Under the pieces are notes generated by a model. The model saw only the letters and a list, made by a program, of their open reading frames with translations, was not told where the DNA came from and searched no databases. Below, piece by piece: positions 31,621 through 37,446 of a stretch of DNA of 64,000 nucleotides. The stretch is from Amphibacillus jilinensis Y1. GTDB taxonomy: Bacteria; Bacillota; Bacilli; Bacillales; Amphibacillaceae. How positions within the stretch are numbered: the stretch's first letter is position 1; each line of letters begins with the position of its first letter. Where the stretch lies: assembly GCF_000306965.1 (NCBI RefSeq), contig NZ_JH976436.1:164057-228056 (forward strand), read 5' to 3'. Made by a program: the position numbers and the translations under genes.

Positions 31621-31778
31621 TTTTTTCAACCAAAAACTTGATATTTTAAATACTTTGCTATGCGACTTTTTAGATTAGGACAAAACTTTGCAATGCGTAT
31701 GTGTACTGATTGACTTATTTCATTGTTAAATAATTAGCAATTAGGTGATACCCTAATTACGTTAAATAAAGTTATTAA

Positions 31779-32315
31779 TATTATCATAAAGGTAGTGACC
31801 AAGAGGATTTTCACTTTCTTCGTATCCTTGTAGCCTTAAAAGGGGATCGCTTTTCTGATGCACATGTTTTACTACTAGAGTCTAGTAATAGAATAAATAT
31901 TGATAATATCGGATTTTATTGCTTTTATCAACTTTGGTGGCTTACGTATGCATTATGTGTAAAAGACTTTAAACTCGTTTTAGAGAAAATAAGTATATTA
32001 GAACAATTCTTTATAGAGCATCCTCTACAAAGAGAATATGGTTTATTTTTACTGTTGAAAGGATTTTATTATTTAAAAAATAATAAAACTAAGTTGGGCG
32101 TTGATCTAATTATCCAATCTTTTAATGTTATAGAACAAACAAAGTTTGTTCTACAAACACTTGTACTACTCTATATTGCTGATATACTGTTAAAGCATTT
32201 CCACCAAAAAAATGTTGATGAATTTATCTCATTAAAAAAAGAAGACATTTATGAAAAATATAATCTAATAATGATTAAAAAAAGAATAAATAGTAAATTT
32301 GAACATTCGCTCTGA
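31779..32315 (+). pseudogene. Decayed helical-repeat (TPR-like) protein, N-terminus missing
   Basis: One frame is open from 31779 to 32315 (about 178 residues) but has no plausible start. The only ATG with any length, at 32055, cuts through a helix pair. The sequence is made of amphipathic helices, for example FLRILVALKGDRFSDAHVLL and REYGLFLLLKGFYYLKNNK, in a pattern reminiscent of the TPR-type domains of peptide-sensing regulators (Rap/PlcR/AimR group). The DNA-binding part expected in front is absent. Identification is tentative; the loss of the 5' part is clear. It stands just before the MFS gene on the same strand. Confidence 0.45.
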
Positions 32316-32374
32316 TATTCTTCTGACATTGAACTGATATCATTGATAACAGTTAGTTGGAAGGAATGAAGTGT

Positions 32375-33655
32375 ATGACTCAAAATTTATTAAGAAAAGA
32401 TAAAACGATATGGAATAATTCCATATTCATTAAACTTTTTGCTTCTTATTCTATCTCTATGTTTGGACATTGGTTTGACAGAGTTGCTCAAGTAGTTTTA
32501 TTTGGCTATGTATGGAAATCAACTCCGATGGTTATTGCATTAATTCCTGTTGCTTATGCTTTGCCACAAGTCATACTTGGTCAGTTTGTTGGGGGAATAA
32601 TAGAACGAAATCATAAAGTAAAAATAATGCTTTTTGCTGATTTGTTATCTGCGGGGTTGACTTTAATCCTGTTTTTTACAAATACCGCCTTAATGGCACT
32701 TATTATTATATCACTAAGGGCTGCGGTCAATGTCGTCCATAATCCAGCACAACAAGGCCTTATTAAGTTAATTGTTAATGAAAACTTAATTATAAAAGCA
32801 GTTACTTTAAATGGTACAGTTAATCAGCTATCAAAATTTATTGGACCTTTTATTGGAGCAGGGTTAATTGGGTTAACTTCTCCAAAACTCTGTATTCTTA
32901 TAAATGCCATTGCATTCATCGTATCTGCGCTTTTTTTACTATTAATTTTATTGAATAAAGACATGATAGAACAAACTAAATCAACAAAAACAGACCAACC
33001 TTCTAAAGGACCGTTTTGGAATGACTGGTTACAAAGCTGGAAAATTGTTTTGCACAGTAAGATTGTTTTTATTAGTTTGTTAGCAACTTTTATTGGTCAA
33101 TCGATCATTCAAATGGTGGACATTCAATTTCCAATATTATTTCGAAATTTAGCCCCAACTTTACCTGAGTTAACTGGTTGGTTAATGGGCGCGTCTGGTT
33201 TAGGTGCCTTAGTTATGATAATTAGTTTAAATCAGATGCGTGAGCTGAGAAAGTTTGGATATCTTATGGGTACAAGTATGTTATTAATCGGAGTAGGCTT
33301 TGGGGGCATAGGTTTTCTTCGAGAGGGTTTTACTATCTTATTACCTATAATTCTATGCTTTATTGCAGGTTTAGGTGTTGGACTATTAACAATTACTTTT
33401 CAATATATTATTCAAACAGAGCCAAAAGAATATGAAGTTGGACGCGTTTCTGCCATTAGTAATTCTGTAATGAACATTTCAGTCTTGACGTCACCTATAA
33501 TTGGTGGATTACTTATACCATATTTAGGAATCAGCCTTATTTACATTATTTCAGGATTAACTTTAGCGATTTTCGGAATGAGCTTAATGTTGGGGAGTTC
33601 TTTGCTCTTCAAAGAAGATGTAAAAGAAGATGGCAAAGAAATTGTTGCTGAATAG
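32375..33655 (+). CDS. MFS transporter, macrolide-efflux-like
   Basis: A membrane transporter of 426 residues with about twelve hydrophobic segments, resembling the MefA/enterobactin-exporter branch of the major facilitator superfamily (early FASYSISMFGHWFDRVAQV, DLLSAGLTLILFF, NPAQQGLIKLIVNENLIIKA). These usually export drugs, siderophores or small peptides; the cargo here is not known. I use the ATG at 32375, about ten bases after GGAAGG; in-frame TTG (32357) and ATG (32366) lie too close to or inside that site. It converges on the peptide cassette. Confidence 0.8.
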   Translation: MTQNLLRKDKTIWNNSIFIKLFASYSISMFGHWFDRVAQVVLFGYVWKSTPMVIALIPVAYALPQVILGQFVGGIIERNHKVKIMLFADLLSAGLTLILFFTNTALMALIIISLRAAVNVVHNPAQQGLIKLIVNENLIIKAVTLNGTVNQLSKFIGPFIGAGLIGLTSPKLCILINAIAFIVSALFLLLILLNKDMIEQTKSTKTDQPSKGPFWNDWLQSWKIVLHSKIVFISLLATFIGQSIIQMVDIQFPILFRNLAPTLPELTGWLMGASGLGALVMIISLNQMRELRKFGYLMGTSMLLIGVGFGGIGFLREGFTILLPIILCFIAGLGVGLLTITFQYIIQTEPKEYEVGRVSAISNSVMNISVLTSPIIGGLLIPYLGISLIYIISGLTLAIFGMSLMLGSSLLFKEDVKEDGKEIVAE

Positions 33656-33747
33656 AAACATGTTTCTCTCCACAATATTTTCTTTACAATCTGACGATGT
33701 TAATGTGTTACATTTTCGTTTTATTCAGTATTAGCCTATGAGAATAG

Positions 33748-33819
33748 AAAAAGAGGGATCCGGAAAGTTTATATAAGTTTTAAGAAATTTAAGATGTGCG
33801 GGTTTCCGAAATTACCCTC
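33748..33819 (-). terminator. Possible terminator of the peptide-cassette operon
   Basis: On the minus strand GAGGG and CGGAAA pair with TTTCCG and CCCTC around a loop of about 36 bases, followed by TTTTTC. It lies 75 bases after the 85-residue ORF. The large loop makes this tentative. Confidence 0.35.
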
Positions 33820-33893
33820 CCTAAATTAAAGCTTTTACTAAAATTCTATTTTTAAATGTTAGTTTAGATCTAATGACTCGCTAAATTTGCGTT

Positions 33894-34151
33894 TCACCTC
33901 AGGCAACCTACGCCTACTTGCCCAGCATTTCCTCTTTTCCAATCAACACCAAAGAATCTATAGCCACGTCTCATACACCAAATAGATGCTGCTGTCACTA
34001 CCACAATAGCTAGTGCTGCTAGAACAATCAGTGCTACAATAGCCCATAGAGGGGGAGCATTATATCCTTCAATTCGATCGTACACTTTTTGAATCAAGTT
34101 ATCTTTGAACCTCTCTTTTCTAAAGTACATTTGCACCATTGCATTCGTCAT
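33894..34151 (-). CDS. Small one-helix peptide, candidate precursor of a secreted peptide
   Basis: I do not recognise this 85-residue protein. It has a charged N-terminal third (residues 1-32), one strong transmembrane helix (about 34-57, PLWAIVALIVLAALAIVVV), and a basic, glycine- and aromatic-rich tail with two cysteines (CMRRGYRFFGVDWKRGN and GVGC, positions 59 and 83). AAGGAGGTGA stands five bases before the ATG, close to a perfect ribosome site, and the start overlaps the protease gene's stop in ATGA, so it is very likely translated. As last gene after an M50-like protease and ABC exporter genes, it could be a bacteriocin or signal precursor cut within the membrane; that is inference. 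Confidence 0.65.
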   Translation of the reverse strand: MTNAMVQMYFRKERFKDNLIQKVYDRIEGYNAPPLWAIVALIVLAALAIVVVTAASIWCMRRGYRFFGVDWKRGNAGQVGVGCLR

Positions 34152-34678
34152 TTGATCTCACCTCCTTTCATTAAATCAGTGATTCCTTTAACAATCATGG
34201 CTCCATCTCCAGATATGGGGAAAAAACTAATTATATGAAATCCATAGCAAACTGCCAATAACAATAAAGAGATGCTAGTTGGCATTATATATGACCTAAG
34301 AAGAAGTAATGTTATCGAAATCAGCGTGCATAAAAGTGGCCCTGAACAAGCAACTACTATTGAAAGTAATCCTTTTATCGGTTTTAAAGGAACAATTTCG
34401 AATGTAAACCAATTAACTTGTATTCTGACATATCTATTGTTTGATATTTTCTTTATAACTAACAGGTGCATATACTCATGAATACTTAGGGATAATACGA
34501 CACCTACAAGATAGACAGGGAAAAATAACCAAATTTTTGAGTTAATAAATAAACCAACGAATACTGTTAAAAGAAAGAGAACAAAGAAAAGATAATTCGC
34601 CCATTTCAGATAATGACAAACGTATTGAACAACTTTAATAAAGCTTAACTGTTGGATATCGATGGTATGATCTATCAT
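34148..34678 (-). CDS. Membrane-embedded metalloprotease, M50 (site-2 protease) like
   Basis: A 176-residue integral membrane protein with the zinc motif HEYMH (about residues 67-71) inside a hydrophobic segment and a second motif FFPISGDGAM near residue 154, corresponding to the DG motif of site-2 proteases that supplies the third zinc ligand. No PDZ domain is present. Such enzymes cut single transmembrane helices, and a one-helix peptide is encoded immediately downstream, making that peptide the natural substrate candidate. Start and stop overlap both neighbours (TAATG before, ATGA after). Distantly related M50 proteins occur in the YydFGHIJ peptide system of B. subtilis. Confidence 0.72.
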   Translation of the reverse strand: MIDHTIDIQQLSFIKVVQYVCHYLKWANYLFFVLFLLTVFVGLFINSKIWLFFPVYLVGVVLSLSIHEYMHLLVIKKISNNRYVRIQVNWFTFEIVPLKPIKGLLSIVVACSGPLLCTLISITLLLLRSYIMPTSISLLLLAVCYGFHIISFFPISGDGAMIVKGITDLMKGGEIK

Positions 34679-34983
34679 TATGCTGATACTTGTTTACGTT
34701 TAATATTTAAGTAGATAATTGATAGCATATAATAAAGAATACCTACTAATAAAATCGTCAGCCAAACAGGTTGTAATCGATTATAGTTCAGACCAAATTG
34801 CATATATAAATCCCAATCTGGCGAGTTCTCGTTGATGTCTAGAAAGATAGCTCCGAAATAAGTAGTATCATACCCTATATGTTCACTACTAAATAACAAA
34901 TGTATAAAACTAATCACTAAAATCGTCAACGTTGTGAGAACAGAAGCAACTAAACAGCTAAAGATTAGTTTGATTTTTCGCAT
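34678..34983 (-). CDS. Small membrane protein of the peptide cassette
   Basis: A 101-residue protein with two transmembrane helices (about 8-30 and 72-92) and an acidic outside loop (GAIFLDINENSPDWDLYMQF). I do not recognise a family. AAAGGAGGAAG precedes the ATG, and it overlaps the permease gene by 26 bases. An accessory or immunity role is possible from size and position only. Confidence 0.6.
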   Translation of the reverse strand: MRKIKLIFSCLVASVLTTLTILVISFIHLLFSSEHIGYDTTYFGAIFLDINENSPDWDLYMQFGLNYNRLQPVWLTILLVGILYYMLSIIYLNIKRKQVSA

Positions 34984-36403
34984 AAATCACTTCCTCCTTT
35001 AATTTTTCTAAACCAACCCAACTCACATAAACCATAAAAAGATATATTCCTCCCATAATTATTTGGTTATAAATCTCGGATAAACCTAGAAATTGTAATA
35101 ATAGTGTCATGGCCCCAGCAATAATTACCATAACCAGTACACCTACAAATGGCGAGAATGGATTCTCTTTTTTTCCCGGAAATAAAATTCCGATTAATGT
35201 AGAAAAAATATTGGCTAGAAAAAGGCTCAAAAATATGGACAGTGTTTCATTTATAGAAAATATCGTCTGATAAAAAAACAATTGAATCATCAATATTGGT
35301 ACTGATATAAGTAATAAAAACAAGAATTGGCTAAAAATCATGCAGCTGTAGTCTTTGATAGCACTGTACTTCAATTGAAAGTATATTATTCGAATACGAT
35401 CTGTTTGACTGTACATATACAGCCCTGTTGTTACATTCAAAAATAGCGCGTGCAAAGGGTTCATTATTTCAGATAAAAGAAAAAATGCTGATAAACAGTA
35501 GACAATAGTAACCGTTACGTAATTCTCAACTCGACGCGTAAGTTGCATGAAATATATATTTAATAAACCTAAAACGTTAATCAGTGGAAGTTTAAGCTTA
35601 ATATAGAGATTATCCTCTGTATGTAGCTCGTTAGGAATATGCAAAATAGTAAATATTAATATAACAGATAACAACGCAAATACGAGTGCAGACCATGTGA
35701 AACCAACCATATTATGAAGCTCTACAAACCCTTGAGACCAGTGGCGAAAATCCCCTAAGTTCTGGACGGGCATAACAGCATTCATACTATCACGATATAA
35801 AAAATAGAGGAGTCCTGTGAAAAGCAAGAGCGATATAAACGATTTTAATTTAGTTAATTTTAAAAGTTCTAAAATACGTATGACTAGAACATAGAGTAAT
35901 TGAAGGAATAAGTGTCCGATTATGCTGTTAAAAGCAATAATACAGATTAAGAGTGTGAGATAAGAAAAGCTAGAGCGTAATAAAATAGCAATTATATAAG
36001 ACAAGGAAACCGAAGCAATTACTGTTAATGACATGATTAATTCAAACAGTAAAAATGAAACACTGCGTTCTTGATTAGTCACGGGGAGTTGAGAGGTTAT
36101 TTTTAAAAAAGAACCTCGTTTCAAAAAAAGCATTTTAATAAGTAGGAAAGAAACCGCAGTCCATACAATAATGTTTAAACTTTGCATTTGGATAAGATAA
36201 TACAAAAAATCTACTTCTTCTGTCACAAATGAGTCATCAAAAAAATGATAGAGAAAAATAGTTGTTCCTATTGTCAAAACAATGGCGGCTATGCCTGCAG
36301 CAACTCGAAATAACCTTTCTTTTAAAATCCCGACACTTAATACCTTACGAATGAAAAAGAGATAGTATAATTTTTGTAAATTAAAAATATTCTGTAATTT
36401 CAT
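34958..36403 (-). CDS. ABC transporter membrane subunit, large multi-spanning
   Basis: A 481-residue protein with about twelve hydrophobic segments, a likely double-length ABC-2-type permease partnered by the ATPase upstream. A cytoplasmic loop near residues 85-115 (KRGSFLKITSQLPVTNQERSVSF) resembles the coupling region of exporters that act on peptides or lipids. It overlaps the ATPase gene by 23 bases and the next gene by 26, showing tight coupling. GAGGAT precedes the ATG. Export of, or immunity to, the product of the 85-residue gene is the simplest reading. Confidence 0.7.
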   Translation of the reverse strand: MKLQNIFNLQKLYYLFFIRKVLSVGILKERLFRVAAGIAAIVLTIGTTIFLYHFFDDSFVTEEVDFLYYLIQMQSLNIIVWTAVSFLLIKMLFLKRGSFLKITSQLPVTNQERSVSFLLFELIMSLTVIASVSLSYIIAILLRSSFSYLTLLICIIAFNSIIGHLFLQLLYVLVIRILELLKLTKLKSFISLLLFTGLLYFLYRDSMNAVMPVQNLGDFRHWSQGFVELHNMVGFTWSALVFALLSVILIFTILHIPNELHTEDNLYIKLKLPLINVLGLLNIYFMQLTRRVENYVTVTIVYCLSAFFLLSEIMNPLHALFLNVTTGLYMYSQTDRIRIIYFQLKYSAIKDYSCMIFSQFLFLLLISVPILMIQLFFYQTIFSINETLSIFLSLFLANIFSTLIGILFPGKKENPFSPFVGVLVMVIIAGAMTLLLQFLGLSEIYNQIIMGGIYLFMVYVSWVGLEKLKEEVIYAKNQTNL

Positions 36404-37115
36404 TTTTCATATCCTCATAGTTAATTAACTTTTTAAAAACGTTTATTAAACTGCCATTTCCTTTGACAATCTTAGACACCGCACTATCAACAGCGACTCT
36501 GCCTTTATGAATTAAAATTACTCGCTCTCCAATTTCTTCAACGAGCTCCAAATCATGTGTACAAAAGATTGTTGCTCCACCTTTATGTTGATAACGATTC
36601 AGTAAAAGTTTGGTAGCTTCTTTTGCTTCAACGTCAATTCCATTTAATGTTTCATCAATAATGAGAAGTGGTGCATCGATTAAAAATGCACTTAGAAGTT
36701 GAATTTTTTTCTTCATACCGTGAGAATATTCTTCTATCAGCTTATCTAGCTTGGTGTCTAAGGAATAATAATTAGCTAGTCGCGTCATTGCTTCTTGATT
36801 TAATATCACTTCGTACATATTACACAACATCTTGATATACTCAAACCCTGTTAAAAACTCTGGCAAATAATCTTCACTTGATAAGTAAACAACTGTTTTT
36901 TTGACTAATGGAAGATGATGAGGCACACCATCAACCATGATTTGACCTTCTTGAATTTTTAGCAAGTCCGTTATTAACTTGATAAGCGTTGTTTTCCCAC
37001 TGCCATTTGGGCCGGCAATTGTTAAAAACTCCCCTTTATCCAATTGGAAGCTAATCGTATCTAACACCTTATTTTTTTTGTCATATGAATAATTCAAATC
37101 ATTAATAGCTAACAT
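36381..37115 (-). CDS. ABC transporter ATPase of the peptide cassette
   Basis: A 244-residue ATP-binding subunit with Walker A GPNGSGKTT (about residues 35-43), Q-loop near 77, a variant signature YSHGMKKK in place of LSGGQ, Walker B LLIIDETLNGID and the switch histidine in THDLELVEE. This variant is common in ABC-2 and bacitracin-type exporters. It is the first gene of a five-gene overlapping operon. The ribosome site is AAGGTGAT before 37115. Confidence 0.88.
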   Translation of the reverse strand: MLAINDLNYSYDKKNKVLDTISFQLDKGEFLTIAGPNGSGKTTLIKLITDLLKIQEGQIMVDGVPHHLPLVKKTVVYLSSEDYLPEFLTGFEYIKMLCNMYEVILNQEAMTRLANYYSLDTKLDKLIEEYSHGMKKKIQLLSAFLIDAPLLIIDETLNGIDVEAKEATKLLLNRYQHKGGATIFCTHDLELVEEIGERVILIHKGRVAVDSAVSKIVKGNGSLINVFKKLINYEDMKNEITEYF

Positions 37116-37297
37116 CCAATTATCACCTTCAATTCTCCTTGTAATAAATTCAATTTAAAGTAAATATTTATTTGTTAATTACTAAAATAAGTATATTACA
37201 CATATTACCTATAAACAAGATCATTTGTAAAAATTTAATAAATAATTCAATAATATAACATTTAAGTGTATGCTATATTTTTAAAAATCATGTCATT

Positions 37298-37327
37298 AAA
37301 AAAACTGACTTAGATGCCAGTTTTTTT
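37298..37327. terminator. Rho-independent terminator between the sugar and peptide regions
   Basis: AAAAAAACTG pairs with CAGTTTTTTT, giving a T run in both directions. On the minus strand it ends the transcript carrying the 203-residue gene at 37431. The gap 37116-37430 otherwise holds an AT-rich promoter region for the ABC ATPase and a partial R1 repeat. Confidence 0.65.
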
Positions 37328-37382
37328 GATCATGTTTTGTTATCGTGCAAAGAAAGGAGTCTTCCTTTATGAATAGTCTTTC

Positions 37383-37446
37383 AAATAGATGAGCTCTACA
37401 CTTTTTTTGAAGCGGGCGTTTTACGGGCGGTTATCTCTGTGATAAA
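37383..37446 (-). repeat. R1 repeat, leading half only, overlapping a stop codon
   Basis: TTTATCACAGAGATAACC on the minus strand supplies the codons for LSQR and the TAA stop of the 203-residue gene, followed by GCCCGTAAAACGCCCGCTTC. The trailing half with the dyad is missing. Confidence 0.65.

Follow-up and report, generated by a model that had tools for sequence, protein, structure and literature searches.

A probable TMcin biosynthetic gene cluster of a divergent branch in Amphibacillus jilinensis

Introduction

TMcins are antibacterial peptides whose membrane helix is retained in the mature product and which form pores in rival bacteria (Dickey et al., Nat Commun 2025, PMC12328743); they are also described by Nur et al. 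(bioRxiv 2026, PMC13252029). According to the paper describing them, their gene cluster is unlike any known one and had been missed by genome mining. It consists of tmcB, encoding an ATPase; tmcC, a permease; tmcE, a two-helix escort protein; tmcP, a DUF3267 site-2-type protease; and tmcA, the precursor (PMC12328743; PMC13252029). The class is very recent and few members have been studied so far.

The experimentally studied member is TMcin-G1905 (pCT545) of Staphylococcus aureus (PMC12328743; PMC13252029). Its TmcP, which carries H68EYMH and D158, cuts on the N-terminal side of the helix and so takes off a leader of 45 residues, in a reaction that requires TmcE, and TmcBC exports the product. 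The mature peptide starts with AWFVV, keeps its helix and forms pores (PMC12328743). The two conserved cysteines, C25 and C50 in the mature sequence, are joined by a disulfide, and the predicted structure is a helix followed by two strands. A DsbA-like gene, tmcD, is reported in staphylococcal clusters and stated to be missing elsewhere (PMC13252029).

Results

A cassette of five overlapping genes

The window, a 64,000-nucleotide stretch of Amphibacillus jilinensis Y1 (contig NZ_JH976436.1), contains five intact minus-strand genes that overlap in succession (Table 1). The ATPase and permease genes share 23 nt (36381-36403), the permease and 101-residue protein genes 26 nt (34958-34983), the latter and the protease gene a single nucleotide (34678, in TAATG), and the protease and 85-residue protein genes 4 nt (34148-34151, ATGA). 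The ATG of the last gene is preceded by AAAGGAGGTGAG, in agreement with the near-perfect ribosome site assigned to it in the first-pass annotation. Hydropathy analysis gives no membrane segment in the ATPase, 10 in the permease, two in the 101-residue protein, four in the protease and one in the 85-residue protein. The permease, previously described as having 12 helices, is multi-span, and the count by hydropathy is 10 as against 12 in the published TmcC; the other features noted earlier, namely the two-helix protein, the HEYMH and DG motifs of the protease and the one-helix protein with Cys59 and Cys83, are confirmed. Scans for consensus promoters and terminators gave results no better than shuffled sequence.

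Table 1. The cassette and its surrounding segment, in window positions
Feature	Position	Strand	Basis
tmcB-like ABC ATPase, 244 aa	36381..37115	-	PF00005 (E 4.5e-24), motifs, identity to relatives
tmcC-like multi-span permease, 481 aa	34958..36403	-	classical-only profile (285 bits), plasmid homologues
tmcE-like two-helix escort protein, 101 aa	34678..34983	-	TM segments, classical-only profile, alignment with relatives
tmcP-like DUF3267/S2P-clan intramembrane protease, 176 aa	34148..34678	-	H67EYMH, D158, profiles, AF2 fold
tmcA-like precursor, 85 aa	33894..34151	-	invariant residues, classical-only profile, AF2 model
Low-GC segment with MFS transporter and cassette	31652..37441		other content at the corresponding locus of G006, a genome of the same genus

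The cassette matches the TMcin cluster gene for gene

When the window proteins were scanned against Pfam and NCBIfam, the ATPase was the only cassette protein assigned to a family; weak matches below cut-off to Ferric_reduct and RAMP were ascribed to composition noise and rejected. The route to the TMcin literature was DUF3267, the Pfam family matched by the Gracilibacillus orthologue of the protease (PF11667, E 8.3e-11); the window TmcP alone has no Pfam match. Profiles were built from distant members alone, outside the clade of the window (classical-only profiles). They were run against a background of 873 stop-to-stop ORFs, drawn from the window itself, from two loci of its clade and from a region of a congeneric genome. 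Against this background, the window tmcA scores 31 bits (E 7.9e-9, the top hit among the 873 ORFs), tmcE 69 bits (E 1.5e-20), tmcP 71 bits and tmcC 285 bits. Window genes and their clade relatives rank at the top, and the best unrelated ORF reaches at most 9.2 bits. Because the classical-only profiles single out the window genes, a chance likeness between small membrane proteins is ruled out. We consider it very probable that the five-gene cassette is a TMcin biosynthetic gene cluster. Within this known class the cassette belongs to a divergent branch, with the core gene set intact. The first-pass annotation had suggested a distinct bacteriocin or signalling system: a bacteriocin is indeed probable, but the system is not a distinct one, as the TMcin cluster was published in 2025.

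The individual components fit this assignment. The ATPase has a Walker A motif, GPNGSGKT, at position 35 and a Walker B motif, LLIIDE, at 150-155, and is 48-64% identical to the ATPases of the relatives. Homologues of the permease, for which no Pfam or NCBIfam family was found, are encoded on S. epidermidis plasmid pHOB2 and a Roseburia plasmid. The 101-residue protein has two TM segments and aligns with its counterparts in the relatives. For the protease, an S2P fold is supported: the TmcP family profile matches the Methanocaldococcus jannaschii S2P structure 3b4r (E 4.2e-6), and the AF2 model (pTM 0.83) has its best fold matches in 3b4r, then SpoIVFB. In Foldseek the E values to S2P are 0.008-0.014 with TM-scores of 0.43-0.48 on the query, so that the fold match is supportive, not decisive. 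Together with H67EYMH and D158-G, these matches bear out the earlier reading, in which a protease of the S2P type is encoded next to a one-TM precursor.

Relatives are rare and spread over Bacillota

Relatives were sought with the protease in 161 genomes of the family, with a permease profile in 399 genomes of the order, and, across 84,980 GTDB species represented by one genome each, by a pattern-based scan. Besides the window, six or more genomes or plasmids, all in Bacillota, have the five-gene order with the 85-residue gene conserved beside the protease; this synteny, with the gene-for-gene TMcin match, supports the original reading of a peptide maturation and export cassette. Intact copies are present in Oceanobacillus sp. 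J11TS1 (L011/L018), Gracilibacillus dipsosauri (L013/L022), Lentibacillus saliphilus (L012/L023) and two further genomes, G189 (L024) and G797 (L032). In Alkalihalobacillus pseudalcaliphilus (L021) the cassette is present and a stretch of Ns in tmcC leaves the permease partly read; in G623 (L033) the permease is broken and there are two tmcA copies. Weak M50 matches elsewhere were rejected: six-frame reading revealed no cassette at L007-L009, and L010 is a broken frame within the genome of the window itself. The cassette is rare, matched in at least 4 of 400 genomes at class level and at least 1 of 399 at phylum level, the latter being the window's own; these counts are lower bounds, mostly with four candidates scored per genome.

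Peptide toxin genes often occur in tandem copies. Tandem tmcA genes are seen in G189 (L024:10544-11125, identical) and in G623 (L033:2906-3543, nearly identical).

Plasmid searches with the permease identified pHOB2 of S. epidermidis and a plasmid of Roseburia sp. 831b, both of which carry a homologous small gene, whereas a tblastn search of plasmids with the 85-residue protein as the single query gave no match. The cassettes of these two plasmids, Gracilibacillus and Lentibacillus share with the window all five components and the W, C, W, G and C of tmcA. The Roseburia cluster differs from the window in its split order, tmcA-E-P being followed by a thioredoxin/DsbD-like gene, with tmcBC lying farther along. 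A gene pair for an Xre regulator and a membrane protein accompanies the Bacillaceae and S. epidermidis copies; no such pair adjoins the window cassette. pHOB2 (L025, NZ_CP018844.1) is a 9.3-kb mobilizable plasmid of S. epidermidis strain 14.1.R1, on which the cassette and regulatory pair are the sole annotated genes apart from those for replication and mobilisation and unnamed ones. This strain is reported to have exceptional antimicrobial activity against P. acnes, tentatively credited by its authors to a type VII system. The TMcin-like cassette, which the consulted passages of their account do not mention, would be an alternative source of that activity, with no causal link implied.

The Oceanobacillus cassette (L011:7711-16094) lies between a ComQ-like polyprenyl synthase gene and a ComP/ComA-like kinase-regulator pair, which suggests quorum control. 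No ComX gene was recognised in this locus; directly upstream of the cassette is a 75-residue ORF (L011:12370-12597), without a Pfam match, that ends in AATYGWQCRNA. This setting bears on the question of whether the peptide is itself a cell-cell signal, freed by the S2P protease and the ABC exporter. In enterococci, Eep and PptAB combine such a protease with an ABC exporter for pheromone release, and the window cassette could follow the same logic. However, the cassettes have no conserved receptor gene next to them, the characterised relative kills, and a product that retains its helix is ill suited to receptor signalling. We therefore regard a pheromone system as very unlikely.

The window belongs to a divergent clade

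In a tree computed from the concatenated tmcB and tmcC sequences, the window forms a group with the copies from Oceanobacillus, Siminovitchia and Pseudogracilibacillus; the branch separating this group from the rest is long and has full support. Over tmcB and tmcC, identity is 53-54% between the window and members of this clade and 31-39% across its border. The clade also differs at the predicted N-terminus of the product, which reads A/G-P-P-L/F-W as against A/G-W in the classical members, among them the S. epidermidis, Roseburia, Gracilibacillus and Lentibacillus cassettes. The window holds a new, divergent TMcin member.

The product is predicted to keep its helix

TmcA of the window has a single TM segment by hydropathy (residues 37-55), flanked by W36 and W58; the latter is F or Y in the two clade relatives. 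W36, C59, W71, G77 and C83 are invariant in the alignment, with Cys59 at the end of the helix and Cys83 near the C-terminus in every tmcA examined. The AF2 model of the 85-residue protein, of moderate confidence (mean pLDDT 70), shows a helix at 35-61 and strands at 66-70 and 80-84. The mature S. aureus TMcin, with its A-W start and C25/C50, aligns to W36, C59 and C83. At the start of TMcin-G1905 (Ala-Trp), all classical members have [D/N]-[A/G]-W, whereas the clade of the window has N-[A/G]-P-P-[L/F]-W; the [DN]-[AG] pair, which corresponds to the known cleavage site, is shared by all members examined, the window included. From this alignment, the cut is predicted between Asn31 and Ala32, giving a leader of residues 1-31 and a mature peptide of residues 32-85. 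The latter would be 54 residues long, retain its helix, contain six Lys/Arg and a single Asp, and have a monoisotopic mass of 5,808.17 with the disulfide.

A different product had been proposed at first, a soluble, disulfide-closed C-terminal bacteriocin of about 27 residues released by cleavage within or after the helix. S2P enzymes do cut single helices, and the C-terminal tail is bracketed by two cysteines. Nevertheless, in the characterised TMcin the cut lies N-terminal of the helix, which stays in the product, and the cut pair is conserved in the window. The short peptide is extremely improbable, and we continue with the 54-residue, helix-containing product. The earlier guess of a disulfide between Cys59 and Cys83 agrees with the TMcin; this disulfide is likely, closing a loop with a predicted two-stranded sheet. 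R61, R62 and R65 directly follow the helix, which weakens the positive-inside case for a C-terminus on the outside. By analogy, pore-forming antimicrobial activity is predicted for this divergent member; TmcA identity to the classical members is only about 22-28%, so the activity could have diverged.

Genomic setting and thiol oxidation

In a genome of the same genus, G006 (L045), both flanks of the segment are syntenic and 80-88% identical. The middle is unaligned: the counterpart of 31,652-37,441 is replaced by a segment with a 697-residue gene, and tmcA is absent in G006. The GC content in the window is 0.27-0.35 over most of the segment and about 0.38-0.42 in the flanks. Because the flanks are syntenic, the segment is replaced in G006 and its GC is low, horizontal acquisition of the cassette, or else its loss from G006, is probable. 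An MFS efflux-type transporter gene (32357-33655) shares the segment with the cassette; none was seen beside the cassettes of the relatives.

No tmcD was recognised among the ORFs neighbouring the cassette, a gene not required outside staphylococci. The host genome encodes one DsbA-like thioredoxin-fold protein (Thioredoxin_4), away from the cassette, and a DsbB was not found in it, so that disulfide formation is not assured. DsbB and thioredoxin genes lie near the cassette in G189 (L024:5254-6164), as does a thioredoxin/DsbD-like gene in the Roseburia cluster (L026:1314-2819); these thiol-oxidation genes fit a disulfide in the product.

A possible role of tmcBCE in immunity from orphan loci

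Siminovitchia thermophila (L019:2242-5231) and Pseudogracilibacillus auburnensis (L014/L020; L020:9289-11851) have full-length tmcB, tmcC and tmcE and a truncated tmcP, with different breakpoints in the two species; tmcA was not detected in either genome with a close-relative query. Between the two, dN/dS is 0.32 for tmcB, 0.15 for tmcC and 0.26 for tmcE, from few changes. The 85-residue protein might instead be a structural component of the transporter or protease complex, as its co-conservation with both could indicate, but this has next to no probability, since tmcA is lost in these two genomes with intact tmcBCE, occurs in tandem copies in two others, and has a homologue that is a secreted antimicrobial in S. 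aureus.

The orphan loci suggest that tmcBCE confers immunity and that they are possibly immunity-only loci. This reading is kept as a hypothesis because the truncations are undated and perhaps not independent, and the counts of changes are small. A wider proposal is that the clade of the window, whose member here has a more basic hairpin, is a functionally distinct TMcin subclass and that tmcBCE doubles as the immunity system; if true, this is why tmcBCE was kept in at least two genomes after the loss of tmcA and truncation of tmcP. We put it forward as a doubtful possibility. Self-immunity is stated as not studied in the 2026 preprint (PMC13252029), and the orphan tmcBCE loci offer a direct test of this question.

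Discussion

For the cassette itself, the analysis shows gene content and order, homology of each component, the catalytic motifs, the two conserved cysteines and a predicted fold of a helix and a hairpin; for cleavage, disulfide formation, escort, export and pore formation, we infer the course of events by analogy with the S. aureus relative. The 85-residue TmcA would enter the producer membrane via its single helix. TmcE may hold it and offer it to TmcP, the four-helix DUF3267 site-2-type metalloprotease, which would cut off the leader at the predicted site. On the outer side, one disulfide between Cys59 and Cys83 would close a small beta-hairpin. TmcB and TmcC would then pull the peptide out of the membrane and release it, and in neighbouring Gram-positive cells it may insert, oligomerise and form pores.

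The Bacillus subtilis epipeptide system YydFGHIJ, to which the first-pass annotation likened the locus, also has genes for an M50-type protease and an ABC exporter alongside that of a small peptide. The likeness holds as a loose functional parallel and goes no further: the precursor architecture differs, and no radical SAM epimerase gene is present among the five cassette genes and the two adjoining genes scanned.

The closest described system is TMcin-G1905. The window differs from it in low sequence identity, in having neither tmcD (DsbA) nor an HTH regulatory pair adjoining, in a predicted leader of 31 rather than 45 residues, and in three extra residues, P-P-L/F, that separate the predicted new N-terminus from the conserved Trp. 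The two have in common the core operon tmcB-C-E-P-A, a one-helix precursor with two conserved cysteines and a predicted helix and two-stranded sheet, a DUF3267 S2P-clan protease with HEYMH and D158, a two-helix escort protein and an ABC exporter; as an intact, divergent cluster in another lineage, the cassette broadens the range of sequences for structure-function work on TMcins.
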